A DNA stretch of 64,000 nt from Acidobacteriota bacterium (GTDB lineage: Bacteria > Acidobacteriota > Holophagae > Holophagales > Holophagaceae), in NCBI GenBank assembly GCA_016213735.1, contig JACQZU010000020.1, positions 124,001 to 188,000 of the forward strand. The letters are read 5' to 3'. Under the pieces are notes generated by a model, which was not told the DNA's origin, did no database searches, and was given only the letters and a program-made list of their open reading frames with translations. Both the position numbers and the translations under genes were made by a program. Positions 19,795 to 38,033 of the stretch are shown here, one piece after another; position 1 is the stretch's first letter, and each line of letters opens with the position of its first letter.

Positions 19795-20304
19795 ATGACC
19801 TCCTCCCTCCTGCTTGCCCCCGAACAGCCCATGACCTGGCTGGTCTGGGTGGTCTGGGCCTTCCTGTGCGCGTTGTCCTTTCCTGCACTCGCGGCCTCGG
19901 CCGGGAGAGCCCATCCTCCCCAGGTTCCTTATTCCACCTGGGCTCAGGTCGAGACCGGGTACGACGCATCCAGTCTGGCCAGCTTCGACGGCGTCATCGC
20001 CAAGGTCCGGTTATTCCAATTCGCCGCCCGGGGGCCGGCGTTGGGGGTGGAAATCCCCAACGGCGAACGCACCACCCTGGTGTTGATCGCGCCGATGAGT
20101 TACCTCGCCTCCAAAGGCAGGCTGGTCGGGCGGGGCCTCCGCATCAAGGGATCGGGGTCCCGCCAAACATTGGCCTTCGGAGACCTGATCATTGCCCGGG
20201 AGGTCACCCTGCAAGGTCGACCGTTGAAGCTTCGGGATGAATGCGGGAGGCATGTCTGGAACCCCCGTCGACCCAAACCACCCATCTCGGACGATGATCA
20301 TTAG
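19795..20304 (+). CDS. Exported protein of unknown function upstream of marR2
   Basis: A 169-aa product with an N-terminal hydrophobic signal or anchor (MTWLVWVVWAFLCALSFPALAA) and a mainly beta-type mature part of about 130 aa (VIAKVRLFQFAARGPALGVE, LIIAREVTLQGRPLKL). The alternation of short strands suggests a small OB-like fold, but I cannot name the family. It shares the strong promoter at 19749 with the second MarR gene, which starts 31 nt after its stop, so it is probably a target of that regulator. Confidence 0.65.
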   Translation: MTSSLLLAPEQPMTWLVWVVWAFLCALSFPALAASAGRAHPPQVPYSTWAQVETGYDASSLASFDGVIAKVRLFQFAARGPALGVEIPNGERTTLVLIAPMSYLASKGRLVGRGLRIKGSGSRQTLAFGDLIIAREVTLQGRPLKLRDECGRHVWNPRRPKPPISDDDH

Positions 20305-20335
20305 GATGAGAATCAGCTCGATCCAAGAGGCCCCG

Positions 20336-20815
20336 ATGCCCGCTGCCCGGACAAAATCTCAACTGATCCAGGAATCCATGCAGAGCCTGCGACGGATCGT
20401 GAAGGCCCTGGAGGACTATTCCCGCGACGTGGAGCAGCAGTTCGGTCTCACCGGGCCGCAGTTGTGGGCGCTGTGGGAGCTGGGCCACGAAGGTCCGCTC
20501 TCCCTGAAGGACCTGGCGGCGCGGATGCACCTGGAATCCAGCACCGTCGTGGGGGTGGTGGATCGGCTCGTGGCAAAAGGGCTCATCGTGAGAAACCCCG
20601 ATCCCCTCGATCGGAGGAAAGTATCCCTGGCTCCAACCCCCAAGGGAGATCAAATCCTCGCAGCCGCACCTCCGCCCGCCCAGGGACACCTCTTGCAGGG
20701 GCTCGAGTCCATGCATCGCAAGCGCGTGGAGAGTCTCCACGAATCGCTCCAGACCCTCGAACAGGTGCTTGGGGCCAGGAAACTGAAAGCGCCGTTCTTT
20801 TTTGCTAAGGAGTGA
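20336..20815 (+). CDS. MarR-family transcriptional regulator (second paralogue)
   Basis: A 159-aa winged-helix regulator with LRRIVKALEDYSRDVEQQFG, the HTH LKDLAARMHLESSTVVGVVD and the wing DPLDRRKVSLAPTPKG. The start chosen is ATG 20336 with AAGAGG 5 nt upstream, which makes it the same length as its paralogue at 17204. In-frame ATGs at 20294 and 20306 are possible. It follows the exported-protein gene in the same transcript and precedes the stress and osmolyte cluster. Confidence 0.9.
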   Translation: MPAARTKSQLIQESMQSLRRIVKALEDYSRDVEQQFGLTGPQLWALWELGHEGPLSLKDLAARMHLESSTVVGVVDRLVAKGLIVRNPDPLDRRKVSLAPTPKGDQILAAAPPPAQGHLLQGLESMHRKRVESLHESLQTLEQVLGARKLKAPFFFAKE

Positions 20816-22661: not shown

Positions 22662-22717
22662 ACCCAGGGATCCCCGTGTTGCACGGCCCCTGCGCACCCA
22701 AACGAAAGGAGAATCCG

Positions 22718-23158
22718 GTGATTGAACGCGTGATTGTTGGCATCGATTTTTCAGAAGGTTCCAGGGCTGCGCTCCTGGAAGGCGAGGACCTTGCGGAACA
22801 GTTCGGCGTGCCCTGCCTGGCGGTGCATGTCCTTCCATCCGGCGGCCCCCTTTTCCCCGAGGCACTGCCTGTCCACATGGATCCCCTCTGGTACCAGGCC
22901 GAGGATCTGGAACGCCTGGAACACCTTCAGGAGTGGGTCTCTCCCCTCCCGCAGGCGATTGCCAAGGTCGTGACCGGGGAACCCGCGGATCAACTGGTGA
23001 GAACCGCGGACCCCAACGCCCTGCTTGTTCTTGGACGGGAGCATCACTCCCCGATAGGGGCCCTGTTTGCCGGATCGACCACCCGCTGGATCCTCAACCA
23101 CGCCCCCTGCCCCGTGATGGTGGTTCCGGCGAGTCCCGCCCAACCCGGAAAGGAATAG
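22718..23158 (+). CDS. Universal stress protein (UspA domain)
   Basis: A 146-aa single-domain protein starting at GTG 22718 after AAAGGAGA. It has VIVGIDFSEGSRAALLEGEDLA at the N terminus and a C-terminal nucleotide-binding stretch (LVLGREHHSPIGALFAGSTTRW, CPVMVVP) matching the ATP-binding UspA pattern. It sits between the nitrilase and HPF-like genes at the start of the stress cluster. Confidence 0.9.
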   Translation: MIERVIVGIDFSEGSRAALLEGEDLAEQFGVPCLAVHVLPSGGPLFPEALPVHMDPLWYQAEDLERLEHLQEWVSPLPQAIAKVVTGEPADQLVRTADPNALLVLGREHHSPIGALFAGSTTRWILNHAPCPVMVVPASPAQPGKE

Positions 23159-23215
23159 TGGATTCCGACCGGGCTCACCCCATTCCTTCGCCGATTCCCC
23201 TTTCAAGGAACGCCC

Positions 23216-23644
23216 ATGAGATACAACCCCAATTCCCACCAGCGTCGCTCCGCATTCCCGCCTGCCGGCACCCGGCCCCGCTCTGAAACGTTGGGTCGGA
23301 CCACCACCGAGCAGACCCCCCTTTGGGTCCGGACCTTCGGTCTGGCAGGCATCCCGGACGCACGCACCTATGTCCGGCGCCATGCGGGATTCAAGCTTGG
23401 CAAATTCGCCTATCACATCGAAGGTCTTCAGGTCCGGATGAAGAACGAGAGCGGCCCCAAGGGCGCTCCTCTGGCGGTATGCACGATCACCGTCGACCTT
23501 GCCCGGGCGGGCATCGTGGTCGTGGAACAGGCTTCCCAGAGCCCCATGGCGGCATTCGATCTGGCCCTGGACAGCGCCGAACGCAGCGTGCGCCGAACCC
23601 TCCAGAAGATCGGCGACCGGAAGCGGCAGCCAAAACCGGAATAA
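23216..23644 (+). CDS. HPF/RaiA-like ribosome-associated protein
   Basis: A 142-aa protein with a basic disordered N terminus (residues 1-40) and a HPF/RaiA-type beta-alpha-beta domain (ARTYVRRHAGFKLGKF, IEGLQVRMKNESGPKG, MAAFDLALDSAERSVRRTLQK). It is more divergent than the canonical hpf at 4268. Co-location with a universal stress protein suggests that ribosome protection is part of the stress programme. The assignment rests on pattern only. Confidence 0.75.
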   Translation: MRYNPNSHQRRSAFPPAGTRPRSETLGRTTTEQTPLWVRTFGLAGIPDARTYVRRHAGFKLGKFAYHIEGLQVRMKNESGPKGAPLAVCTITVDLARAGIVVVEQASQSPMAAFDLALDSAERSVRRTLQKIGDRKRQPKPE

Positions 23645-23686
23645 GGCCGTTGTCCCCGTGAATCGAACGCTCCACCGGAGGTATCC

Positions 23687-24901
23687 ATGTCCGACTTCTT
23701 CCAGACCGGTCTCGTCGCCACCCTCCATCGTTTGGTCCCCCAGGGCTCGGAACGCCTGGAGAAGGAATTGGGGGAATACTCCACCCTGCGGCCCATCGCC
23801 CTTGTCCTCCCCGCGCTATACAGCGAATTCGAGGGGCCGGCCCTCAAGCACATCCTCGAAGAACTCCGCCATGTCCGATACCTCAAGCAGGTGATCTTCA
23901 CCATCAGCGGGGCGGATGAAGTTCAGTACGCCAGGGCCCGGGACATGGCGTCGATGCTGCCGCAGGATGTCTCCTTCCTATGGAACAGCGGCCCCCGGAT
24001 CCAGGGGCTGTACCAGAAGCTCAAGGACAACAACCTGCCGGTGGGAGAGGATGGCAAGGGTCGATCCTGCTGGATGGCCTACGGTTACGTGCTGGCCACC
24101 CGGAAGGCCGACGTCATAGCCCTGCACGACTGCGACATCCTGACTTTCGACCGCGAATTCCTGGCACGGCTCTGCTACCCGGTGGCCAACCCCAACCTGA
24201 TCTTCGAGTTCAGCAAGGGTTACTACGCCCGGGTCACCGACCGGATGCATGGACGAGCCACCCGGCTCCTCGTGACTCCCTTGATTCGGTCCCTGGAGCG
24301 GATTATGGGATACCTCCCCTTCCTGGTCTTCCTCGACAGTTTTCGGTACCCCCTCGCCGGGGAATTCTGCATGGACGCAGACCTTGCGCGTGTGAATCGG
24401 ATTCCCGGCGACTGGGGTTTGGAAATGGGAGTGCTGGCCGAGATCTACCGGAACTGCTCCGTGAAGCGGGTCTGCCAGACCGAGTTGTGCGATACCTACG
24501 ACCACAAGCACCAGGACCTGTCGCAAGGCGATCCAGCGAAGGGCCTGATGAAGATGGCCGTGGACATCTGCAAGACCTTGTTCAGGACCCTCGCCGCCGA
24601 AGGAGCCATTCTGGATGCGGGGGTGTTCCGGACCCTGCAATCGAGGTACATCCGGGCGGCCGAGGACACCATCACCCGCTACCACGCCGATGCCCTCATC
24701 GATGGCCTCGGGTTCGACCGCCACATGGAGGAGGTGGCCGTGGAAACCTTCGCCAAGGCGCTCCGCCTGGCCGGGGATGCCTTCCTGGAGGACCCCCTGG
24801 GCCAGCCGCTCATCCCGAACTGGAACCGCGTCACGGCAGCGCTGCCCAACTTCCTGGAAGAGCTCAGGGTCCAGGTCGACCAGGACAATGGGAGGCCCTG
24901 A
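23687..24901 (+). CDS. gpgS: Glucosyl-3-phosphoglycerate synthase-like glycosyltransferase (GT81 type)
   Basis: A GT-A fold enzyme of 404 aa. ALVLPALYSEFEG opens the nucleotide-sugar domain and the DxD-like IALHDCDILTFD gives the metal site. FSKGYYARVTDRMHGRATRL, YPLAGEF and IPGDWGLEMGVL match the longer GpgS-type synthases. These transfer glucose from NDP-glucose to 3-phosphoglycerate. The next gene is an MPGP-type phosphatase, the expected partner. A mannosyl donor cannot be excluded. GGAGG precedes the ATG. Confidence 0.8.
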   Translation: MSDFFQTGLVATLHRLVPQGSERLEKELGEYSTLRPIALVLPALYSEFEGPALKHILEELRHVRYLKQVIFTISGADEVQYARARDMASMLPQDVSFLWNSGPRIQGLYQKLKDNNLPVGEDGKGRSCWMAYGYVLATRKADVIALHDCDILTFDREFLARLCYPVANPNLIFEFSKGYYARVTDRMHGRATRLLVTPLIRSLERIMGYLPFLVFLDSFRYPLAGEFCMDADLARVNRIPGDWGLEMGVLAEIYRNCSVKRVCQTELCDTYDHKHQDLSQGDPAKGLMKMAVDICKTLFRTLAAEGAILDAGVFRTLQSRYIRAAEDTITRYHADALIDGLGFDRHMEEVAVETFAKALRLAGDAFLEDPLGQPLIPNWNRVTAALPNFLEELRVQVDQDNGRP

Positions 24902-24904
24902 ACC

Positions 24905-25735
24905 ATGCCGCGTCCCTTTGACCTCCTTTTCACCGACCTCGACGGGACCCTTCTGGAAGAGCGGACCTATTCCTTCGAGGCCGCCCGGCCGGCCCTCAGG
25001 CACCTCCAGACCCTGAGGATTCCCATCATCTTTTGCACCAGCAAGACGATTTCAGAGACCGTGGCGATCCAGGAACGGCTTGGGCTGGAGGATCCGTTCA
25101 TTGTCGAAAACGGCGGGGCCGTCTATTTCCGCCCGGGCCAGTTGACCGAGGCCCCGCTTCCGATCCAGCGATCCGGTGCGTGGCACCGCCTCAGCTTGGG
25201 TTATTCGTATTCCAGGCTGGTTTCCAACCTGCTGAAGATCCAGGCCCAGCTCGGGTGCCGCTTGCTCGGCTTTTCGGACATGAATGCCACCGAGATTTCC
25301 CAGGCGTGCGGGCTTTCCGTGGAGGAGGCCCTTCGGGCCAAGGACCGTCAGTACGACGAACCCTTCATCGTGGAGAACGAGACCCCGGAATTGATGGACG
25401 CGCTTGAACGGGTTGCCTCCGACCATGGCCTGAGGGTCACGCGGGGGGGCCGCTTCCATCACTTGACCGGGCCCAACGACAAGGGCCAGGCCGTCGGATT
25501 GGTCCTTGGCGCCTATGCCCGTTCTCTTCACGGAACCCGTTGTGTCGCCCTCGGAGACAGCCCGAACGACCTCTCCATGCTGTTGGCCGCGGACCTGCCC
25601 GTGGTTGTTCAGCGTCCCGACGGCTCCTGGGACCCCCGGCTCCTGGACCGCCTGCCCGAGGCCATCAAGGCGGAAGGGATCGGTCCGGTGGGATGGAACC
25701 AGGCCGTGTTGACCCTCCTCGGGGAAGGGGGGTGA
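24905..25735 (+). CDS. Mannosyl/glucosyl-3-phosphoglycerate phosphatase (HAD-IIB, MPGP family)
   Basis: HAD motif I FTDLDGTLLEE, motif II in FCTSKTISETVAIQ, the MPGP signature DPFIVENGGAVYF, Lys in NDKGQAVGLV and motif IV VALGDSPNDLSMLL. It should dephosphorylate the product of the preceding synthase to glucosylglycerate or mannosylglycerate. It starts 4 nt after the synthase stop, so the pair is coupled. Confidence 0.88.
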   Translation: MPRPFDLLFTDLDGTLLEERTYSFEAARPALRHLQTLRIPIIFCTSKTISETVAIQERLGLEDPFIVENGGAVYFRPGQLTEAPLPIQRSGAWHRLSLGYSYSRLVSNLLKIQAQLGCRLLGFSDMNATEISQACGLSVEEALRAKDRQYDEPFIVENETPELMDALERVASDHGLRVTRGGRFHHLTGPNDKGQAVGLVLGAYARSLHGTRCVALGDSPNDLSMLLAADLPVVVQRPDGSWDPRLLDRLPEAIKAEGIGPVGWNQAVLTLLGEGG

Positions 25736-25739
25736 GCGG

Positions 25740-27020
25740 ATGAGGAGCCACATCACCCTCGATCCAATCCTCAAGCAGCAGCTACGGGTGATCGGGAAGG
25801 CGGACCTGGTCCTGGGCATCCCCAGCTTCAACAATGTCACCACCATCGCCCACGTGGTCCGAGCCGCCCAGGCCGGGTTGACCAAGTACTTCCCTGGATC
25901 GAGGGCCGTCCTGGTGAATTCGGACGGGGGTTCCACGGACGGGACCCAGGAGGCGGTGCGGGAGGCCTCCGTTGGGGATTCCCGGTCCATCCTCGCCTCC
26001 CATCCCCTCTTTCCCGTGCATCGAATCGTGACCCCCTACCACGGCATTCCGGGGAAGGGCAGCGCCCTCCGGACGATTTTCCAGGCCGCCCAGGAACTGG
26101 AGGCAACCGCCTGCGCCGTGGTGGATGCGGACCTTCGGAGCATCACCCCGGCCTGGATGGATTTCCTGCTCGGCCCCGTGGTCCATGAACAGTTCGATTT
26201 CGTGGCCCCCCTCTACCTCCGCCACAAGTACGACGGGACGATCACCAACAGCATCGTCTACCCCATGACCCGTTCGCTCTACGGACTCCGGGTCCGGCAG
26301 CCCATCGGGGGAGACTTCGGCCTTTCCCGGAAGCTGGTCTCCCATTACCTGGAGCAGGATGTGTGGGACACGGATGTCGCCCGGTTCGGCATCGACATCT
26401 GGATGAGCACCACGGCCATCGCGGACGGGTTCAAGGTCTGCCAGGCCTTCATGGGTGCCAAGATCCACGACGCCAAGGATCCTGGGCTCCAGCTCGCCCA
26501 GATGCTGCAGCAAGTGATGAGCGCCTTTTTCGATCTCACCCTGGCACGCGAGGAGACCTGGAAAACCATTCGCGGGTCGGTCCCCGTTCCCCTTTTCGGA
26601 ATGGAACATGCCGTTGGCCTGGAACCCGTCAAGGTGGACCAGGCCAGGATGACCCGCTCCTTCCAAAGCGGCCTCCGGGACCTGGGTGCCATCTGGAGCC
26701 TATTTCTCCGGCCCGAGGTCATGAGGGGATTGCAGACGATGGGTTCGGAACCGGCTTCGGGATTCCACATTCCCATGGATCTCTGGGTGCGCACCCTTCA
26801 CGACTTCGCACTGGCCTATCGGGAAAAAACCATCGGGCGGGAGCACCTGCTCCAGTCCCTTACCCCCATCTACCTGGGCCAAGTGGCGTCCTTCATGGTC
26901 CAGGCCCGGGAGGCTGACGCCACCGAGGCCGAAGCTCTTCTCGAGGACCTCTGTCTGGCCTTCGAACGTCTGAAACCCGAATTCGTAGACCTCTGGGAGA
27001 GGCCTGGGAGGCGCCCATGA
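25740..27020 (+). CDS. Second GT-A glycosyltransferase of the solute cluster
   Basis: A 426-aa protein with the nucleotide-binding start LGIPSFNNVTTIAHVVRAAQ, STDGTQEA, GKGSALRTIF, a DxD-like VVDADLRSITPAW and the acceptor-loop region VRQPIGGDFGLSRKL. The C terminus is alpha-helical. The layout recalls mannosylglycerate synthases (GT78) and related family 2 enzymes. Its position directly after the GpgS/phosphatase pair suggests that it adds a second sugar to glucosylglycerate or makes a related solute. The exact reaction is unknown. Confidence 0.7.
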   Translation: MRSHITLDPILKQQLRVIGKADLVLGIPSFNNVTTIAHVVRAAQAGLTKYFPGSRAVLVNSDGGSTDGTQEAVREASVGDSRSILASHPLFPVHRIVTPYHGIPGKGSALRTIFQAAQELEATACAVVDADLRSITPAWMDFLLGPVVHEQFDFVAPLYLRHKYDGTITNSIVYPMTRSLYGLRVRQPIGGDFGLSRKLVSHYLEQDVWDTDVARFGIDIWMSTTAIADGFKVCQAFMGAKIHDAKDPGLQLAQMLQQVMSAFFDLTLAREETWKTIRGSVPVPLFGMEHAVGLEPVKVDQARMTRSFQSGLRDLGAIWSLFLRPEVMRGLQTMGSEPASGFHIPMDLWVRTLHDFALAYREKTIGREHLLQSLTPIYLGQVASFMVQAREADATEAEALLEDLCLAFERLKPEFVDLWERPGRRP

Positions 27021-27718
27021 TCAACGCCATGCTCGCAATTCTCGAGAAGGTCTGGCACACCTTCCTCGGCAAGGTGATCTTTTTCACCCCCAGACTCATG
27101 GCCGCCCTGGTGGTGATTGCCGTCGGTATCGCCCTGGGCCTGGTGATCCGGAAGGTCTCCCAACGGATCCTCCATTCGGGCAGATTCGACACCTGGGTTG
27201 AACGCATGGGTGTGGGATTGCTCCTTCGCCGCGCGGGGCTCTCCCTCTCGCCGGGTGCCTGCCTGTCGGCGACCCTCTTCTGGGTGATTCTCGCCTGCGC
27301 GGCCATGCTGTCCCTCACGGCGTTCGAACTTCCGATCCTGGACCGCATGGCCACCGAGTTCTTCCTGTTCCTGCCTCGGCTCGCGGTGGCCATTCTCATC
27401 ATGGGCTTCGGCTTCCTGCTTGCCGGCTTCCTGGCCAGGGCGGCTCTCCTCGCCGCGGTGAACGCGGAACTTCCAGCTCCGCGTGTGACGAGCACGGTGG
27501 TCCGCTTCCTGGTGATCGTCCTGAGCTCGGCCATGGCCCTGGAACAGGTGGGCGTCGCCACCGCCATCGTGAGCACGGCCTTCGCCATCACGTTCGGCGG
27601 CCTCATGCTCGGGCTGGCCCTGGCCTTCGGTCTTGGCGGGCGCCGGGCCGCACAGGCCCTGCTCGACCGGGGACTGGAAACCAAGGATGAATCGTCTCGA
27701 GCCGTGAAGCATTTCTGA
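27017..27718 (+). CDS. Membrane protein with mechanosensitive-channel-like conserved TM helices
   Basis: Five predicted TM segments, including PRLMAALVVIAVGIALGLVI and a C-terminal glycine-rich FGGLMLGLALAFGLGGRRAA, which resembles the conserved TM repeats found near MscS-like channels. It lacks the MscS beta domain. The ATG overlaps the preceding glycosyltransferase stop (ATGA). It is likely a small channel or channel-associated protein that joins solute synthesis to solute release. Confidence 0.65.
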   Translation: MINAMLAILEKVWHTFLGKVIFFTPRLMAALVVIAVGIALGLVIRKVSQRILHSGRFDTWVERMGVGLLLRRAGLSLSPGACLSATLFWVILACAAMLSLTAFELPILDRMATEFFLFLPRLAVAILIMGFGFLLAGFLARAALLAAVNAELPAPRVTSTVVRFLVIVLSSAMALEQVGVATAIVSTAFAITFGGLMLGLALAFGLGGRRAAQALLDRGLETKDESSRAVKHF

Positions 27719-27761
27719 TGACCCGCTTCTCGAATTCCACCCTCTGCACCAGGGAGCCGTT

Positions 27762-29033
27762 GTGACTGTTGGCCTGCTCATCTCAGATCCCTTCGCCTCG
27801 AGCCTTCTGCTGCTCGCGCTGCTTTGGCTGTCCGCCAAAGTTGGGGGGGAAATTGCCTATTGGCTCCGCCTTCCAACCGTCGCGGGGGAATTGCTGATGG
27901 GGGTCGCCCTGGCCGCCTTGCACCAGAAGTACCCGATCTGGCCGGACGTTGCGGCTTCCCCGGAGGCCAGTGTGCTGGCCTACCTGGGCATGGTGGTCCT
28001 GATGTTCGCGGTCGGGCTCGAATCGACGGTGCCCCAGATGGTGAAAGTCGGATTCGCCTCCCTCCGTGTCGCCCTCGTGGGGGTGGTCGCGCCCATGGCC
28101 CTCTGCCTGCTCGGCACCCGCCTGTTGATGCCGGGGCTCGGGGCGTGGTCCAAAGACCTCTTCATCGCCGCCTGTCTGAGCGCCACCTCCATCGGCATCA
28201 GCGTCCAGGTCCTGCGTGAGAGAGGGGCCGAGAATTCTCCCGAAGGCAGGGTCATCGTGGGGGCCGCGGTGCTCGACGACATCCTCGGCCTATTGGTCCT
28301 GGTGGCCGTCAGCGGAATGGTTTTGGCTTCCGCTGACGGGACCTCCATCCCCTGGATGATCCTGGGCACCAAGATGTTCGTAGCCATCGGGTTCCTGGCC
28401 CTGGCCTTCAGCCTTGGCGGGGCGATGACGCCGGTCCTTTTCAAGATCGCCAGCCGACTCCGCGGCGAGGAACTCCTCCTGCCCCTGGGGCTTGCCTTCG
28501 CCTTCCTTCTCGCCTACCTGGGGAATCTGGCCGGCCTGGCACCCATTGTCGGCGCCTACGCCGCGGGGCTCATCCTGGAACCCGCCCATATTCGTCTGCT
28601 GGAGGAACGCGAAGCCCACGGCCTGCAGGACCTTCTCCGTCCCCTGGTGGTCGTTCTCGCGCCACTCTTCTTCATTCAGATGGGGTCACGGGTGGATCCC
28701 GTCGCCCTGGTCTCGGCAACGGCCATCCAATTGGCCCTCCTGCTTACCATCCTCGGGGTCATGGGCAAATTCATTGCGGGGTATGCCTCGGGCAGGGGAA
28801 TCCGCTCTTCAGTCGTGGGATGGGGCATGGTTCCGCGGGGCGAAGTCGGCCTCATCTTCGTCGCAGTGGGGGCCACCTTGGGCGTGGATGGAGGTCCCCT
28901 GCTGAGCCCGGAAATCAAGGCGGGCGTGGTTGGAGCCTTGCTCCTGACCACCGTCGCCGGACCCATCGGATTGTCATTTGTCCTCCCCGGAAGCCTGCGG
29001 GAAAAGGCTGTCGATCGGACGCCCGGATCCTGA
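27762..29033 (+). CDS. CPA2-family cation/proton antiporter (Kef/NapA type)
   Basis: A 423-aa protein with 11-13 TM helices. It has LPTVAGELLMGVALA, a GLE motif (FAVGLESTVPQM), the paired Asp region AAVLDDILGLLVLV and MVPRGEVGLIFVAVG. No TrkA-N domain is present. It would exchange Na+ or K+ for H+ during ionic stress. GTG start with a weak AGGGA about 6 nt upstream. Confidence 0.88.
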   Translation: MTVGLLISDPFASSLLLLALLWLSAKVGGEIAYWLRLPTVAGELLMGVALAALHQKYPIWPDVAASPEASVLAYLGMVVLMFAVGLESTVPQMVKVGFASLRVALVGVVAPMALCLLGTRLLMPGLGAWSKDLFIAACLSATSIGISVQVLRERGAENSPEGRVIVGAAVLDDILGLLVLVAVSGMVLASADGTSIPWMILGTKMFVAIGFLALAFSLGGAMTPVLFKIASRLRGEELLLPLGLAFAFLLAYLGNLAGLAPIVGAYAAGLILEPAHIRLLEEREAHGLQDLLRPLVVVLAPLFFIQMGSRVDPVALVSATAIQLALLLTILGVMGKFIAGYASGRGIRSSVVGWGMVPRGEVGLIFVAVGATLGVDGGPLLSPEIKAGVVGALLLTTVAGPIGLSFVLPGSLREKAVDRTPGS

Positions 29034-29068
29034 CCCGGTGTTGAAGGCCCTTTGAAAGGAGGTCCCCC

Positions 29069-30304
29069 ATGAAGTTTCCACGCGTCCTTGCCATGGTCTT
29101 GGCAGGAGGTGAGGGAAAGCGCCTCCACCCCCTTACCGCGGAACGGTCCAAACCGGCGGTTCCCTTTGCGGGACGCTACCGCGTCGTGGACTTCGTGCTG
29201 AGCAATCTGGTCAATTCAGGGATCCAGGCCATCTACCTGCTTGTGCAATACAAATCCCAGTCCCTGATCGAGCACGTGGACCGCGCCTGGGTGTTCTCCC
29301 CCATCCTCCCCGACCAGTTCGTCACGGTGGTCCCAGCCCAGATGCGGGAGGGCCCGGAGTGGTATCAGGGGACCGCCGATGCGGTGTATCAGAACCTGAA
29401 TCTGATCGAGCGGCATGCACCCGAGCTGGTGGCGGTGTTCGGGGCGGACCATATCTACCGGATGGACATCCGGCAGATGGTCGATTTCCACAAGCAGAGC
29501 GGGGCTCACGCCACGGTGGCTGCCATTCCCTTTCCGGTCGCCCAGGCCTCTCATTTCGGTGTCATTGAAACGGAGGGGGCAGGACGGATCACCGGCTTTC
29601 AGGAAAAACCGACGGATCCCCGCCCCATGCCGGGCAATCCGAAGCAGGCGCTCTGCTCCATGGGGAACTACCTGTTCGACCGGGACGTCCTGGTGAACGC
29701 CCTCAAGGAGGCTCGGGAGCGGGGCGATTCCGATTTTGGCCACCACGTCCTCCCCAACCTCCTCCACAGCCATCGCCTCTTTGCCTACAACTTCCGGGAG
29801 AACCTGGTCCCCGGAGTCCGGGAATACGAAGAAGCCAGTTACTTCCGGGACATTGGTTCCCTTGATGCCTATTTCGCAGCCAATCAGGATCTTCTCGGCA
29901 ATGAGCCGCGCTTCAACTTGTTCAATCCGCGCTGGCCCATCTATTCCAGTGCCTACCAGGGGCCCGGGCTCCGCGTTCTTCAGGGGGATCTCGGGCAATC
30001 CCTCATCGGAGCAGGAACCCTGGTCAAAGGCGGGAGAATCCGAAAATCGGTGATCCGTCAGGAAGCAGTTATCGGAGATGGAGCCGAGTTGGATGAATGC
30101 GTCATCATGGACCACTGCGTCATTCGAGAAGGCACCCGGCTCCGGCGGGTCATCGTCGACCAGTCCAACGTCCTGGACCCTGGTACCACCATCGGCTTCG
30201 ATCCCGAAGCGGACCGGCGGGATTACCACGTGACCGAGGGTGGCATCACCGTGGTGCCCCAGGGCCGAAACGGAAGGCCCAGCGAGAGCTATTTCCAGCC
30301 CTGA
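29069..30304 (+). CDS. glgC: Glucose-1-phosphate adenylyltransferase GlgC
   Basis: The nucleotidyltransferase domain has LAGGEGKRLHPLTAERSKPA and WYQGTADAVYQNL, then the glucose-1-P site HFGVIETEGAGRITGFQEKP. A C-terminal left-handed beta-helix (IRKSVIRQEAVIGDGAELDE) follows. It forms ADP-glucose from ATP and Glc-1-P. With no glycogen synthase nearby it may supply NDP-glucose for OtsA or GpgS (inference). AAAGGAGGT lies ahead of the ATG. Confidence 0.93.
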   Translation: MKFPRVLAMVLAGGEGKRLHPLTAERSKPAVPFAGRYRVVDFVLSNLVNSGIQAIYLLVQYKSQSLIEHVDRAWVFSPILPDQFVTVVPAQMREGPEWYQGTADAVYQNLNLIERHAPELVAVFGADHIYRMDIRQMVDFHKQSGAHATVAAIPFPVAQASHFGVIETEGAGRITGFQEKPTDPRPMPGNPKQALCSMGNYLFDRDVLVNALKEARERGDSDFGHHVLPNLLHSHRLFAYNFRENLVPGVREYEEASYFRDIGSLDAYFAANQDLLGNEPRFNLFNPRWPIYSSAYQGPGLRVLQGDLGQSLIGAGTLVKGGRIRKSVIRQEAVIGDGAELDECVIMDHCVIREGTRLRRVIVDQSNVLDPGTTIGFDPEADRRDYHVTEGGITVVPQGRNGRPSESYFQP

Positions 30305-30362
30305 CCTGAAACACAGTTTCCCTGGAACGACGCCACCCGCCCCTTGCCACACCGGAAACCCG

Positions 30363-30911
30363 ATGACCCAAACCCGCCTCCGAACCCAATTCCTGTCGAT
30401 CGCGGTCAGCGTGGCGCTCTGGGGTGGTCTGGCTTGGCTGGACCTTTCCACCGGAACGAGAATCCGCCTTGGGCCGGTCTACGCGCTACCGGTCATGCTC
30501 ACCTCCTGGAACCTCGGACGGACCTGGGGGATCGCCGCTGCACTTTTTTCCGCCCTGCTTTGGCACGGCATCCAGGTCTTCGTCCTGCATGAATCGGGAA
30601 TCCCCTTCTACCGCCACTGGGACATGGCCAACGGTCTCCTTTCCTTCCTGGCCATCTCCTACGCAGTGATTTGGGCCAAGCAGATCCTGCTTCGGGTGGA
30701 AGAGGCAAATGTCCATCTCCAGGAGGCCCTGGAACAGGTCCGTACCCTGGAGGGAATGCTCCCCATTTGCGCCTGGTGCCACAAGGTCCGGGATGACCAA
30801 GGACTGTGGGAACAGGTGGAGTCCTATGTGTCGAAGCACTCCAAGGCCCAGTGGACCCACGGCATTTGTCCGTCCTGTGCCGAGAAGATCAAGCAAGAAG
30901 GCCCCACCTGA
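30363..30911 (+). CDS. Membrane protein with a C-terminal four-Cys sensor-associated motif
   Basis: Residues 1-110 hold about three or four TM helices (VALWGGLAWLDL, ALPVMLTSWNLGRTWGIAAA, LLSFLAISYAVIWAK), then a short coiled-coil (residues 115-135) and the stretch ICAWCHKVRDDQGLWEQV ending in HGICPSCAEK. This CxxC...CxxC block commonly ends PAS or GGDEF sensor proteins and is probably a zinc-type knuckle. No catalytic domain is present. It lies between GlgC and MscS and could be a membrane sensor. Confidence 0.7.
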   Translation: MTQTRLRTQFLSIAVSVALWGGLAWLDLSTGTRIRLGPVYALPVMLTSWNLGRTWGIAAALFSALLWHGIQVFVLHESGIPFYRHWDMANGLLSFLAISYAVIWAKQILLRVEEANVHLQEALEQVRTLEGMLPICAWCHKVRDDQGLWEQVESYVSKHSKAQWTHGICPSCAEKIKQEGPT

Positions 30912-30958
30912 CGGAGGGGAAACGCTGCTGTACCGCAATCACCGCCAAGAGGAACGGA

Positions 30959-32038
30959 ATGGAACTTCTGGCCCGGATCTACCTAGGGAACACGCTTCAT
31001 GAATGGCTCCTCGCCATGGGCACAGCGTTCGGGGTCCTGCTGCTTCTCAGGTTGACCCAGAGGGTCGGCTTCCGCCGGTTGTCGGTTCTTGCCAAGCGCA
31101 CCGAAACCGACCTGGACGACCTCCTGATCGACGTGCTTTACCGCACGCGCTGGTTCGCCCTGCTGGCCGTTTCCATCTATGCCGGCACCAGGTTGCTCAG
31201 GTCTTCACCGGGAGTCGAACGCTTCATTCATGCCATTTTGTTCCTGGCCCTGCTGCTCCAGGTCACGCTCTGGTCCAATGCGGCCATTTCCCTGGTCATC
31301 CAGCGCATGGTCCAGAAGCGGATGGAAGGCGATGCCGCCAAGGCGACGGCCCTCTCCGTGCTGGGTTTCGCGGCCAAGGTTGCGCTGTGGTCGGTTTTCC
31401 TCATGCTTGGCCTGGACAATCTCGGGATCAATGTAACCGGCCTTGTCGCAGGACTCGGCATCGGCGGACTGGCCGTGGCCTTTGCCCTCCAGACCATCCT
31501 CGGGGACCTGTTCGCCTCACTGTCGATCGTTCTGGACAGCCCCTTCGCCATCGGCGATTTCCTGGTCGTCGGCGAGGTGATGGGCACCGTTGAGCACATC
31601 GGCCTTAAAACCACTCGACTTCGCAGCCTTTCCGGAGAGCAGATCGTCTTCCCCAACGGGGAGCTCCTGAAGAGCCGAATCCGCAACTTCCAGCACCTGT
31701 CCGAGCGAAGGATCGCGTTCAACCTGGGGGTGACCTACCAGACAACCCAGAAGCAACTCCAATCCATCGGTCCCATGATCCGCGGCAGCGTGGACGCGCA
31801 ACCCGGAGTTCGCTTCGATCGGGCCCACCTGACGGCATTCGGTGATTCCGACCTGACCTTCGAGATCGTGTATTTCGTCCTGTCACCTGACTACAACACT
31901 TACAGGGACGCCCACCAGGCCATTCTCCTGGAGGTGGTCAGGCAGTTCGCATCTGCGGGAATTGACTTCGCCTACCCCACCCGCACGCTGCACCTCTCCC
32001 ATGACCCCGCCGGGGCGACCGTTCCGGGAAATCCCTAG
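30959..32038 (+). CDS. mscS: MscS-type small-conductance mechanosensitive channel
   Basis: A 359-aa protein with four TM segments. The pore-lining Gly/Ala-rich TM3 (GLGIGGLAVAFALQTILGD) runs into the beta domain (LDSPFAIGDFLVVGEVMGTV, LRSLSGEQIVFPNGEL) and the alpha-beta domain ending near YPTRTLHL. It releases solutes upon hypo-osmotic shock, a natural counterpart to the solute-synthesis genes. AAGAGGA precedes the ATG at 30959. Confidence 0.93.
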   Translation: MELLARIYLGNTLHEWLLAMGTAFGVLLLLRLTQRVGFRRLSVLAKRTETDLDDLLIDVLYRTRWFALLAVSIYAGTRLLRSSPGVERFIHAILFLALLLQVTLWSNAAISLVIQRMVQKRMEGDAAKATALSVLGFAAKVALWSVFLMLGLDNLGINVTGLVAGLGIGGLAVAFALQTILGDLFASLSIVLDSPFAIGDFLVVGEVMGTVEHIGLKTTRLRSLSGEQIVFPNGELLKSRIRNFQHLSERRIAFNLGVTYQTTQKQLQSIGPMIRGSVDAQPGVRFDRAHLTAFGDSDLTFEIVYFVLSPDYNTYRDAHQAILLEVVRQFASAGIDFAYPTRTLHLSHDPAGATVPGNP

Positions 32039-32122
32039 CAGCCTTGACCCCGGGTCCCCGGGACCTCGGCCTTGACTGTACCGACCTCCGTCCATCCCTG
32101 ATTCCACACCTGCAGGCACCCC

Positions 32123-34375
32123 ATGCGCTTATCTCTACGGTTCATCCTCCCCCTCCTCATCGCCCTGGCGGCCATCGCCTACGGCGTCGTGCCCATGGTC
32201 GACGGCCTCACCTTGCGCTGGTCGACCCGGGACCTCGACAGTCGTTCATCCATGATCGCCACCACCCTTCAGGACCCGCTCGCCGAACTTATCGAGAAGG
32301 GGAATCGGGAGAAAATCTTCCTCTACTTCGACAAGATCACTCAGGATGAACGGCTGTTCGCGCTAGGGTATTGCCCCGCAGGTCCCGGAGGCCTGATCGC
32401 GACACGGACCTTCCCGGCATCACTGAATTGCGAGAGCCTGGCCGCGGGTCGGCACCCCCAAGCCAAGCTGCTGACCAGCGTTTCGGGCCTTCTGCACGTC
32501 TCCTCGAAGGAAGTTCTCATCGGTGGTCGCAGTGCCGGCTGGCTGATCCTTGTCCATGACATGAGCTTCGTCCAGCGCCGCTCGGAGGAGACCCGTCGCT
32601 ACGTTTTCTACTTTTTCATCGGGATGGGCGCGATCGTCTCGCTGATCACCGTGATCATCGCCCAACTCAGCTGGAGAGGATGGAACCACGGGATGCGTGC
32701 CCTGTTGCGCGGCGAGGGACTGGTCCGACCCATGGAACGGTTCGTCCAACCGGAGTTGCGTCCCCTGGCTCGAGACCTTCGCACCTTGATCAACGAGATC
32801 GAATCCGAGCACCGGACACGGGATGTCAGCATGGTCACCTGGACCCCTGATTCCCTGAGGCGGATCCTCCACGAGGAACTCAAGGGGGATGACGTTATCG
32901 TCGTGTCGAACCGCGAGCCCTACATTCACGTTTCGAAGGACGGGCGCCTCGAGGTCCATCGTCCCGCCAGCGGTCTCGTCACCGCCCTGGAACCGGTCAT
33001 GAGGGCGTGTTCCGGCGTGTGGATAGCCCATGGAAGCGGGTCGGGCGATCAAGAGGCCGTAGATGCCCAGGATCGCGTGGCCGTGCCCCCGGAAAACCCC
33101 GCCTACCAGCTTCGCCGGGTCTGGCTGACCAAGGAGGAGGAGGCGGGGTACTACTACGGGTTCTCAAACGAAGGGCTCTGGCCCCTGTGCCACATCGCCC
33201 ATGTCCGCCCCACCTTCCGCACCCGGGACTGGGAACACTATGTTGCGGTGAATCGGAAGTTCGCCGAGGTGGTGAAGGAAGAGGCAAAGACCGATGACCC
33301 CATCGTCCTGGTCCAGGACTACCACTTCGCGCTGCTTCCGCGGATGATCCGGGAACTCCTCCCCCGGGCCACCGTCATCAGCTTCTGGCACATCCCCTGG
33401 CCAAACTCCGAAGCCATCTCCATTTGTCCATGGCGCATGGAACTCCTCGATGGGATGCTGGGAAGCAGCATCCTCGGCTTCCATACGCAGTCCCACTGCA
33501 ACAATTTCCTCGACACGGTCGACCGTCTTCTGGAAGCACGGGTCGACCGGGAGGCGCTCACCGTCACCTACCGGAGAGAGCCCTCCTCCATCCACAGATA
33601 CCCCATCTCCATCGCCTGGCCGCCCCCGGAGGAAATCCACTGCGACCCCGTCCCGGCATGCCGGGCCAAGATCCGGCGACGATATCATCTCGCGGAGGAT
33701 CAACGGGTCGGGATCGGGGTCGACCGTTTGGACTACACAAAAGGGATCCTTGAACGATTCAAAGCGGTCGAGCGGCTGCTCGAGGCTGAGCCCTCGTGGA
33801 TCGGACGTTTCACGTTCCTGCAGATCGCGGCTCCCTCTCGCAGCAGCATCGAGCAGTACCAGGATTTCGAGCTTCGGGTCAGGGCCTTGGAAGGCCGCAT
33901 CAACGCGCGGTTCGGAAAGGGCGATTGGCTCCCCATCCTGCTCAAGATCGAGCACTACGAACCGGAAGCCGTGCATGAGCACTATCGAGCCGCCGAATTC
34001 TGCTATGTCAGCAGCCTGCACGACGGGATGAACCTGGTCGCCAAGGAATTCGTCGCCTCCAGGAACGACGAACGGGGTGTCCTGATCCTGAGCCAATTCG
34101 CAGGAGCCTCCAGGGAATTGCCAGAGGCCTTGATCGTCAATCCCTATGACATCGACCAGTGTGCTGCGGCCATGCACCTGGCCCTGACCATGCCCCAGGC
34201 CGAGCAAAGGGCCAGGATGCGGCTCATGCGGGGACTGATCCAGGAGTTCAACGTCTATCGCTGGGCCGGGAAGATGCTGCTGGACGCTGCCCACATGCGC
34301 ATGCGCGGGCGCCTGACGCAATACAAGGGGGACATCCCCGGAGAAGCCCCGCCTTCAGGAGAGGTGATCCCGTGA
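32123..34375 (+). CDS. otsA: Trehalose-6-phosphate synthase OtsA fused to an N-terminal membrane sensor-like module
   Basis: Residues about 1-200 contain TM1 ([19 protein letters not shown]), a periplasmic region of about 130 aa and TM2 ([19 protein letters not shown]) with a HAMP-like follow-on, the arrangement of a sensor protein. From about residue 260 a full GT20 domain follows: [50 protein letters not shown]. Canonical OtsA is about 470 aa and soluble. The fusion would tether trehalose-6-P synthesis to the membrane. It is coupled to otsB (4-nt overlap). Confidence 0.9.
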
Positions 34376-35145
34376 CCGTGCCCAGGGCAACGGTGGAAGA
34401 TTTGGTCCCTCTCATTCGGCATGCTCTTTTTTTCGACGTGGACGGAACCCTGCTCGAATTCCAGGACCGTCCGGAACAGGTCCTATCGAACGCTGGGCTG
34501 AACGGAATTCTTGAGGTCCTGCTGGTCCGCACCCGAGGGGCCGTTGCCCTGGTCAGTGGCCGAGGCCTGGCTGATCTCGACCGGATTTTCTCCCCTCTCG
34601 TTCTGACCGCTGTCGGTCTGCACGGAGCCGTCGTCCGAGGGGCGACCGGGGTTGTCGAACGGCTACCGATCGAAAATGGGCGACTGGGCCAACTCAAGTG
34701 CGCCATGTCCTCGTGGATCAGAAGCAAACCCGGGCTCCTGCTTGAGGACAAGGGGGCCAGCGTGGCGGTCCATTTCCGTCAGGTTCCGGAACTGGCCGAT
34801 GAGGTCCGCTCCAGGATGCAGGCCTGGCATGCGGAGTTCGGCGACGGATTCGAACTCCAGCCGGGCAAGATGGTCCTCGAAGCCCGACCGGCTGGCGTCG
34901 GCAAAGGCGGAGGCATTCGCGACCTGATGGCCGCTCCTCCGTTCCATGGACGAATTCCGGTTTTTTTCGGGGATGACGATACCGACGAGGATGCCTTCCT
35001 GGCGGTCCGGGATCTTAGGGGATGCAGCATCAAGGTCGGCAGTGGTCCAACCTGCGCAATTCGTTCGATTCCCGACCCGGCCGCGGTGCGGTCCTTGCTC
35101 CGAAATGTCGTTGCTTCCGTAGCTTCCTTCCCATCCCTCCCTTGA
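34372..35145 (+). CDS. otsB: Trehalose-6-phosphate phosphatase OtsB
   Basis: A 257-aa HAD-family enzyme. It has motif I FFDVDGTLLEF, ALVSGRGLADLDR, the trehalose-6-P region GLHGAVV, KGGGIRDLM and the metal-binding FFGDDDTDEDAF. It completes trehalose synthesis with OtsA. The GTG at 34372 overlaps the otsA stop. Confidence 0.94.
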   Translation: MTVPRATVEDLVPLIRHALFFDVDGTLLEFQDRPEQVLSNAGLNGILEVLLVRTRGAVALVSGRGLADLDRIFSPLVLTAVGLHGAVVRGATGVVERLPIENGRLGQLKCAMSSWIRSKPGLLLEDKGASVAVHFRQVPELADEVRSRMQAWHAEFGDGFELQPGKMVLEARPAGVGKGGGIRDLMAAPPFHGRIPVFFGDDDTDEDAFLAVRDLRGCSIKVGSGPTCAIRSIPDPAAVRSLLRNVVASVASFPSLP

Positions 35146-35167
35146 CCTTCCTCCAGGAAAGGCTGCA

Positions 35168-36973
35168 ATGTCCCCTTCCTACGATGTCCCGACCCTAGAT
35201 CATGGTTTGATCGGCAACGGCAATCTGCTGGCCCTGGTCTCACCCACCAGCGCCATCGAGTGGATGTGCCTGCCCCGGTTCGATTCACCCTCGATTTTCG
35301 GCCGCCTGCTGGACCATGAGAAGGGGGGGGTATTCCGCTTCCTGCACGCGGGTGAGGAGGTCAAGGGAGACCTGTCCTACCTCCCCAACACCAACATCCT
35401 GAGAAACCGGTTCCAGCACGAAGGCGGCTCGTGGGAATTGATTGACTTCGCTCCCCGGCTTCCACAGGAGTGGAGTGTGGAAGCACCCTTGCGGCTGGTG
35501 AGGCTGCTCCGGCCGCTGCACGGGGTGGTGCGGCTCCAGGTCGATTTCAACCCGAGGCTGAACTACGCCCGTGGCGAGACCCGGCAGGTTGCCCTTCCCG
35601 AGGGTATTGAAGTCCAGGGCATGGGAGGCCCCCTGTTCCTTCAGAGCAACCTCCCCATCAATTACGTTGCACACGGGCGGGAGTTCGTCCTCGACGGCCC
35701 TGTCTGGTTCGATCTCTCCTTCGGCATCCGGACCCGGATGACCACGACTCACGTGAGCCATGAGCTCGAACTGACCACCAAGGGCTGGCTGCAGTTCGCC
35801 AAGACCTGCGCCCTGCCCCTCTACCAGCCGGACCTGGTGCTCCGGTCGGCGCTCTGCCTCAAGCTGCACGCGTGCGAGGACACCGGCGCCATCATCGCCG
35901 CCGCGACGACGAGCATCCCCGAAGCCCTTGGCACCCATCGCACCTGGGACTACCGGTACTGCTGGCTGCGGGACGCGGCCTTTGTTGTCGAAGCCCTGCG
36001 CCGCCTGAGCCACCTCCGCGAAGGCGAGCGTTTCCTGCGATTCCTCCGCAACGTGGCCGAGGCGGGGCCGCTTCGCCCCCTGTATGCCCTCGACGGAGAC
36101 CCCACGGCCCCCGAGGAGATCCTGGAGCACCTCTCGGGATTCGGGGGAAACGGCCCCGTCCGGATCGGCAACGCGGCCATCGAGCAGCGGCAGCATGACC
36201 TGATGGGAGAACTCGTGCTCTGCCTGGAGACCCTGCTGCGCGATCCCAGGCTCGTACACGATGAAGAGGATTTACGTTTCTTCCCCTTGGTGCGGCGGCT
36301 GGTGGAGGAAGCCATCCGCAGCGCCCCGCTCCCCGATACCTCGATCTGGGAGTTCCGAACCCTCTTCCGGAACTACACCTTCTCGCGCGCCATGTGCTGG
36401 GTCGCCGTCCATCGCGGTGCCGCGATAGCCAGGCGATTCGGCGAGCTCGACCTCGCCGCCCGCTGGGAGGCCTGGGCCGCGAAGGAGCAGGTGGAGATCC
36501 TTGATCGGGGGTTCAATTCGAAGCGGGGATTCTTCACCCAATCCATCGACGGAGAGTACCCGGATGCCTCGATTCTCCTGCTTCCCACCCTGGGCTTGCT
36601 GGATCCCCACGATCCAAGGTTCCTTTCGACCCTGGACGCCTACGGAAGAATCCTGACTGAGGAAGGGCTCATGTTCCGTTATCGCAACGACGACGATTTC
36701 GGACAGACGACCTCGGCGTTCACCATCTGCTCCTTCTGGTGGGCGGAGGCGCTCGCCCTGGCGGGCCGACTGGACGAAGCGATCGAGGTCTTCGAACGGG
36801 TCAGCCGCTTTGCCAACCCCCTCGGACTGTTTTCGGAGGACGTCGACCCTAAGACCGGCCGCCTCCTGGGCAATTTCCCCCAGGCCTACACCCACGTCGG
36901 CCTGATCCACGCGGCCATCACCATCGGCGAGCATCTGGAGGCCCGGGAAGGCAAAGTCCGGGCATGGTCATGA
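35168..36973 (+). CDS. Glycoside hydrolase family 15 protein (glucoamylase/trehalase-like)
   Basis: A 601-aa protein with the N-terminal super-beta-sandwich ([34 protein letters not shown]) and an (alpha/alpha)6 barrel. Barrel motifs are [47 protein letters not shown] and [12 protein letters not shown]. The general acid is present (Glu of IWEFR). The general-base position, normally Glu in an E-T-A-F type motif, reads TTSAF (Thr515). It could still be active, or be a binding or regulatory protein. It lies directly after otsB, so trehalose is a likely ligand. Confidence 0.85.
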
Positions 36974-37019
36974 CCGTAAAACCCCCGGGAGTGAGAGGCG
37001 AGAAGGAACACCTCCCCAG

Positions 37020-38033
37020 ATGCCGGGAATCGCTGAAGGACAACCGGAGACCCTGATGCCCCATGCCATTGGAACCGCTTCGATGCTCCTGGGTGGAGCT
37101 GTCCTTTTGTTTTCAGGGGCGGAGTGGCTGGTGCGCGGCGGGGCCGGGATCGCCCGCCGCCTCGGCGTCTCCCCGCTGATCGTCGGTCTCACGGTGGTGG
37201 CCTACGGGACCTCGGCCCCCGAAGTCATCGTGGGCATCCAGGCCGGATGGAGCGGCCACGGGGATCTCGCGATGGGCAACGTCCTCGGCAGCAACATCGC
37301 CAATCTGGGCCTGATCCTGGGCCTTACGGTCGTCCTGAGGCCGACGCCCGTCCAACGCCCCCTCGTGCGCCACGAGGTGCCGGTGCTGCTGTTGTCGACC
37401 TTGGCCCTTCTCCTCATGCTCGCGAATGGCCGGATTTCAAGCCTTGAAGCCTCGGTCCTTCTTTCTTTTGCCGTTGTCTACAGTGGCTGGATGATGCTCC
37501 GGGTGAAACGGGACAAGGAGACCGATGTCCACCTCGCCGTGACCGAAGCCGCCGCCGAAACCGCGGGCGCCCCTTCAGGAGGGTCCCTGCTGCGTCTGGG
37601 CACGCTGGTGTTGGTTGGACTGGTGCTTCTGGTCCTGGGGGGCGATTTCCTCGTCCACGGCGCCACCCGGCTGGCCAAGTCCATGGGCTTGAGCGAGAGG
37701 CTGATCGGCCTCACCATCGTCGCGGTCGGAACTTCCATTCCCGAACTCGCCACCTCGGCCATCGCAGCCTGGCGCGGGCACACCGACATGGCTGTGGGCA
37801 ATGTGGTGGGCTCGAACATATTCAATGTCCTGCTGTGCCTCGGTCTCTCCGGGTTGCCTGGAACCATCGCCGCTCCGTCCCTCCTGGCCAACCCGGACCT
37901 CCAGGCCCTTGTGGCGATGACCCTGCTCGCGGTCTTGTTTCTCCGAACTCAACGCACCATCCGGCGCTGGGAAGGCGGGGCCCTGCTGGCCTCCTACGGC
38001 ATCTACATGGCCTGGGCCATCGCCCGAGGGTGA
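37020..38033 (+). CDS. Na+/Ca2+ exchanger family protein (CaxA/YrbG type)
   Basis: Two alpha repeats typical of the family: [13 protein letters not shown] with [16 protein letters not shown], and [13 protein letters not shown] with [16 protein letters not shown]. About 10 TM helices flank a hydrophilic loop near residue 180. It exchanges Ca2+ or K+ with Na+. It ends the stress cluster. ATG 37020 is used; ATG 37056 ([12 protein letters not shown]) is a reasonable alternative. Confidence 0.92.

Follow-up and report, generated by a model that had tools for sequence, protein, structure and literature searches.

The window, a 64,000-nucleotide stretch of an Acidobacteriota genome (GenBank assembly GCA_016213735.1, contig JACQZU010000020.1, positions 124,001 to 188,000), encodes a predicted trehalose-6-phosphate (T6P) synthase whose GT20 catalytic domain lies behind a membrane module, here called the N-module. 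The gene belongs to a co-directional run (22676-38033) that also holds Usp, a GpgS-like protein, an MPGP-family phosphatase, a GT, two MscS-type proteins, a CPA2 antiporter, GlgC, OtsB, a GH15 protein, and a Ca/Na antiporter. Two compatible-solute pathways, glucosyl/mannosyl-glycerate and trehalose, thus sit in one run beside a pair of MscS-type channels and a pair of cation antiporters. The genes around the synthase were assigned as follows:

23687..24901 (+): glucosyl-3-phosphoglycerate synthase-like GT (GpgS_Meth 351 bits, under the 700-bit cut-off)
24905..25735 (+): mannosyl/glucosyl-3-phosphoglycerate phosphatase family (TIGR01486 above cut-off)
27017..27718 (+): small MscS-related channel protein (conserved TM helix family)
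27762..29033 (+): CPA2-type monovalent cation:proton antiporter (profile search)
29069..30304 (+): GlgC, glucose-1-phosphate adenylyltransferase (PRK00844 555 bits, cut-off 458)
30959..32038 (+): MscS-type mechanosensitive channel, directly upstream of the synthase (profile search)
34372..35145 (+): OtsB, trehalose-6-phosphate phosphatase; its frame overlaps the stop codon of the synthase (TIGR00685 121.8 bits, cut-off 68)
35168..36973 (+): GH15 trehalase/glucoamylase-like protein (PF00723 and TREH_N)
37020..38033 (+): calcium/sodium antiporter, final gene in the run (profile search)

The synthase is the sole GT20 protein in its genome, where the N-module occurs in this gene only and where no TreS or TreY was found over the cut-off. 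Relatives are encoded by 582 stretches, of which the best 80 were kept as a locus sample. Across these 80 loci, OtsB was found on the same strand in 71 and GH15 in 47. The channel, antiporter, and GpgS genes were generally unlinked to the synthase, the channel and antiporter genes being linked outside the window in no more than a few loci, so the run suggests an osmotic role here and not a conserved set of partners. Promoter and terminator signals showed no excess over shuffled sequence. At 30363-30911, the window encodes a multi-TM protein with a weak DUF4118 match and a Cys-rich end (ICAWC...ICPSC), likely a sensor remnant or a zinc-binding tail. A MarR-like regulator is encoded at 20237-20815, and regulators of this kind are found close to the sensor-fused synthase in 8/80 loci (among them L046, L038, and L003).

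The GT20 domain and its membrane module

The following features were assigned to the synthase, and proteins of this predicted architecture are referred to as sensor-fused:

32123..34375 (+): sensor-fused trehalose-6-phosphate synthase, whole ORF including stop (ATG start, 750 aa)
32144..32200 (+): TM helix 1, residues 8-26 (hydropathy 2.39; AF2 helix 2-59; N-terminus predicted cytoplasmic)
32201..32602 (+): predicted extracytoplasmic Cache/PAS-like domain and helical stalk, residues 27-160 (AF2 helix-helix-beta sheet, Foldseek)
32372..32374 (+): Cys84, extracytoplasmic and co-conserved with Cys103 (sequence alignment)
32429..32431 (+): Cys103, partner of Cys84 (sequence alignment)
32603..32659 (+): TM helix 2, residues 161-179 (hydropathy 2.49; AF2 helix 148-195)
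32660..32836 (+): likely derived HAMP-type linker, residues 180-238 (transitive HMM comparison, AF2; direct Pfam HAMP negative)
32894..34285 (+): GT20 catalytic domain, residues 258-721 (GT-B fold; no substitution at any active-site position checked)

The initial annotation had described a complete GT20 domain with its catalytic motifs, and this was confirmed. PF00982 (GT20) covered the domain at 386 bits against a cut-off of 32.5, and 13/13 of the E. coli OtsA ligand and catalytic positions that could be placed were identical in 54/54 aligned homologs (R9, G22, Y76, W85, D130, H154, R262, K267, R300, D361, N364, L365, and E369, in E. coli OtsA numbering). Positions were mapped through a computed alignment to E. 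coli OtsA (locus L210), in which one further Trp was not placeable; the residues and their numbers are those which we take to bind UDP-glucose and G6P. The nearest solved structures were T6P synthases (30-35% identity). The protein scored below the cut-offs of TIGR02400, the NCBIfam OtsA equivalog (426 bits vs. 564.85), and of PRK14501 (487 bits vs. 634), while the glucosylglycerol-phosphate synthase (GgpS) model reached only 287 bits, far under the 426 of the OtsA model, which places this GT20 in a divergent T6P-synthase subfamily. Judged by its domain and active-site positions, the window protein is a T6P synthase in its predicted activity.

Topology prediction bore out the proposal in the same annotation that two TM helices flank a periplasmic domain. 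Hydropathy gave exactly two TM segments, both N-terminal to the GT20 domain, with a domain of ~130 aa between them. Exactly two segments were likewise found in 80/81 family rows, and in 0 rows did a segment fall within the GT20 part. The N-terminus was positively charged and arginines followed TM2; the positive-inside signal was weak, as the 20 residues outside the TMs equaled the inner side in K/R content. A cleaved signal peptide was also considered, against which stand the continuous helix 2-59 predicted by AF2 and the near-invariant residues F7, P10, W33, and D37 across the would-be cleavage region.

AF2 with 54 homologs gave a mean pLDDT of 79 (about 85-93 in the sheet region); the full-length model had a pTM of 0.64, with the linker at low confidence. 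The predicted fold starts with a long helix (2-59) and another helix, continues through a beta-sheet region (80-146), and leads into a helix that spans TM2 (148-195). The top Foldseek matches in the PDB were all extracytoplasmic sensors, namely WalK (3e-6; the matched entry is an integrative model), Tlp3 (6e-4), and Mlp24 (1e-3), with further matches to PctA, KinD, DctB, and LuxQ. These sensor matches had TM-scores of 0.34-0.56 and high rmsd, with E below 0.001 in only three. Because the TM-scores are modest, the assignment to a Cache/PAS fold is good, short of conclusive. Both TM segments and a similarity to sensor folds were found in the N-terminal region, and the part between the TMs is predicted to be a Cache/PAS-like sensor domain. 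The sensor-like periplasmic module of the initial annotation is favored in this form by AF2 and Foldseek, with no match to the Cache Pfam models in the window protein at E up to 1 and weak, sub-threshold sCache matches in divergent members only.

A profile of the N-module found a sensor histidine kinase (L135; architecture TM-sensor-TM-HAMP-HisKA-HATPase-REC) at E 4e-6, and the module is distantly related to this true sensor kinase. Among solved structures, a sequence profile of the module gave no credible match. Weak Pfam matches to CHASE4 and Adeno_E3B among the homologs were put down to noise from hydrophobic segments, or at best count as weak support. Within the extracytoplasmic domain, Cys84 and Cys103 were both kept in 95/96 main-clade sequences and lost together in the remaining one; the pair may form a disulfide. 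W33, D37, D146, and R153 were near-invariant and P214 invariant in the 96 main-clade sequences.

Behind TM2, a HAMP-like linker had been proposed, together with a search against HAMP and sensor profiles. This search was run: neither the HAMP model PF00672 nor any Cache model matched the window protein, even with E allowed up to 1; HAMP was also absent from the 25 Pfam families listed for the 54 homologs. AF2 drew the linker as a helix, a low-confidence connector with G197 (pLDDT below 50 at residues 201-208), and a second cytoplasmic helix (210-235, extended to 210-237 in the feature assignment) with P214. In hhalign comparisons, each single and uncalibrated, the window-clade linker scored 4% against HAMP domains from the same genome, linkers from eight divergent sensor-fused GT20 proteins scored 90.5% against same-genome HAMP, and the window-clade linker scored 95.3% against the divergent-clade linkers, with controls at 0.6% (reversed) and 1.4% (TM1). 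Since the HAMP link appears solely via divergent relatives, we describe the linker as a likely derived HAMP; the proposed HAMP-like character is supported indirectly, by way of those relatives, and fails as a direct Pfam match.

Conservation, distribution, and phylogeny

The whole N-module was present, end to end, in all of the best 80 loci (40-61% identity), a sample biased towards the N-module because 2/6 search peptides came from it. The module was under purifying selection (dN 0.04-0.12, dS 0.44-1.03, dN/dS about 0.05-0.14). Chance, a frameshift, or an assembly artefact was ruled out by this selection and by the same architecture in 80 loci. A less biased sample, with the GT20 core alone as query, matched 130/396 genomes of the phylum. 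Among the loci read, the sensor-fused form occurred in at least 35 genomes (16 strong, 21 divergent, two with both). The fusion was found in Pseudomonadota, Nitrospirota, Thermodesulfobacteriota, Bdellovibrionota, Gemmatimonadota, and Acidobacteriota.

A GT20 tree of 94 rows was built by a quick method with SH-aLRT support. The main sensor-fused group required two changes on this tree, and the divergent sensor-fused proteins formed one group (SH-aLRT 93). Members without the sensor (L202, L186, L093) were nested in or beside the sensor-fused groups, and such members inside the clade indicate that the GT20 enzyme can work without a sensor. The window protein paired with a protein from a Myxococcota MAG (L003), away from most same-family genomes, which suggests that the synthase was acquired by horizontal transfer. 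A separate, Acidobacteriota clade (SH-aLRT 100; L179-L185, L187-L189) carried an in-frame front of 9-11 TMs. This front matched Pfam Na_H_Exchanger at about 1e-20 in L185 (1421-4342, +) and L188 (3356-6112, −), and TM count and clade membership point to a CPA2 Na+/H+ exchanger front in the other eight members.

Two reduced forms were also observed. The protein at L093:5842-7659 (Aminobacter plasmid; about 56% identity) is without the periplasmic domain and has a short hydrophobic N-terminus only. In a sensor-fused GT20 at L203:1978-3894 (−), the periplasmic domain is almost wholly deleted and both TMs and the linker are retained, so that it appears to be a natural sensor-less variant.

A candidate receptor-enzyme and its alternatives

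Several known systems share features with the window protein. Soluble OtsA (E. coli 1GZ5/1UQU, M. thermoresistibile 5JIO) shares the GT20 domain, active-site residues, GT-B fold, and neighboring otsB, but begins at GT20, whereas the window protein adds 257 N-terminal residues as a two-TM sensor-like module. Cache transmembrane receptors (KinD, DctB, Tlp3, Mlp24, LuxQ) share the arrangement of TM, Cache/PAS-like domain, TM, and helical linker, as predicted by AF2 and Foldseek. Their outputs are signaling ones, cataloged as kinases, chemoreceptors, GGDEF/EAL/HD, phosphatases, cyclases, transcription factors, and ion channels (PMC4822843), whereas the output here is a compatible-solute biosynthetic glycosyltransferase and no Cache Pfam match lies above cut-off. 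Since the models of that catalog came only from signaling-output proteins, a metabolic output falls outside it. HAMP-linked diguanylate cyclases and class III adenylate cyclases offer a working analogy, a membrane receptor joined directly to a soluble catalytic domain; they make second messengers, whereas the window protein is a metabolic enzyme with a likely derived HAMP missed by Pfam. The multi-TM GT20 fusions of Acidobacteriota similarly place a related GT20 core in frame behind a membrane module, but differ by their 9-11-TM front and separate clade. Bifunctional OtsA-OtsB and TPS/TPP fusions (PMC1769515) are GT20 fusions too, but with a phosphatase as partner and no membrane module.

We consider it fairly probable that the window protein is a membrane-anchored, one-component receptor-enzyme in which a signal from the envelope adjusts T6P synthesis. 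On the outer side of the inner membrane, the Cache/PAS-like domain between the two TMs would detect some extracytoplasmic state, for which an osmotic, ionic, or small-solute cue is the most plausible. TM2 and the helical linker of derived HAMP type would relay the change to GT20 in the cytoplasm, whose altered activity would give T6P on demand with no kinase or regulator between; the co-encoded OtsB would then dephosphorylate the T6P. The analysis established the anatomy of the protein, its conservation, and its gene linkage; that the domain binds or senses something, that the signal reaches the active site, in which direction it shifts activity, and what the cue is, we infer. That an envelope signal gates T6P synthesis with no separate transducer appears to be the most economical reading. 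The two-TM topology, sensor fold, kinship to the L135 kinase, linker HMM comparisons, and intact active site suggest it, as do selection on the N-module, the near-invariant residues, otsB linkage, the osmoadaptation run, the sole GT20, and the acquisition of a different membrane front (9-11 TMs) by a separate GT20 clade. Against it stand the lack of a curated HAMP or Cache model at cut-off, the modest TM-scores, the pTM of 0.64, sensor-less clade members, and the weak positive-inside signal.

The N-module could instead be an anchor only, keeping the synthase at the inner membrane, possibly close to the channels and antiporters encoded alongside it, with expression and metabolites regulating the enzyme and the Cache-like fold surviving from a receptor whose front part was captured. 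Anchoring by the TMs is certain and ligand binding putative, the HAMP linker has diverged too far for Pfam to recognize, and sensor-less relatives occur in the clade; the multi-TM front of an unrelated clade implies that membrane location itself may be the selected trait. A bare anchor, however, needs no extracytoplasmic domain of ~130 aa with near-invariant residues and a Cys pair across 96 sequences, nor does it sit well with strong purifying selection over the whole N-module, and we regard this account as unlikely, though it is the leading alternative. The frequent same-strand otsB (71/80 loci) and GH15 (47/80), together with the MscS-type channel directly upstream in the window, would also fit a scaffold that recruits OtsB, GH15, and the channel to a complex at the membrane, with the signal acting on the complex or on product export and not on the active site. 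This appears improbable, as channel and antiporter genes are linked in the window and few other loci only and otsA-otsB operon linkage is usual for soluble OtsA too.

The name trehalose-6-phosphate synthase would itself be wrong or incomplete if the GT20 domain made another product, such as glucosylglycerol phosphate, or took ADP-glucose supplied by the neighboring GlgC. Scores below the equivalog cut-offs (TIGR02400 426 vs. 565, PRK14501 487 vs. 634), the glgC gene in the same run, and the preference of some OtsA for ADP-glucose (PMC11046441) speak for this. The lower GgpS score (287 vs. 426 bits), checked G6P and donor positions equal to those of E. coli OtsA, closest structures that are T6P synthases (30-35% identity), and the adjoining otsB make it very improbable.

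Trehalose synthesis is generally seen as controlled by transcription and metabolite levels. If the synthase is wired to an extracytoplasmic sensor, as the receptor-enzyme reading holds, this would be a direct, fast path from an envelope condition to protectant synthesis, and Cache/HAMP outputs would extend from signaling enzymes to a biosynthetic glycosyltransferase. Its presence in several phyla means that the fusion may govern desiccation and salt tolerance in common soil and water bacteria. More tentatively, metabolic receptor-enzymes could be widespread, with a Cache-type domain or, in the separate clade, a CPA2-type exchanger domain directly controlling trehalose synthesis as a transcription-independent osmotic or ionic response.

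A word search of PMC1769515 gave no mention of a transmembrane TPS, and no paper on a HAMP- or sensor-fused T6P synthase was found in the open literature, subscription journals being outside the scope. The fusion of GT20 to a sensor-like membrane module is widespread, conserved, and apparently undescribed. Its sequences can be found in public genomes, and one annotated relative, on a plasmid, carries the plain name trehalose-6-phosphate synthase.
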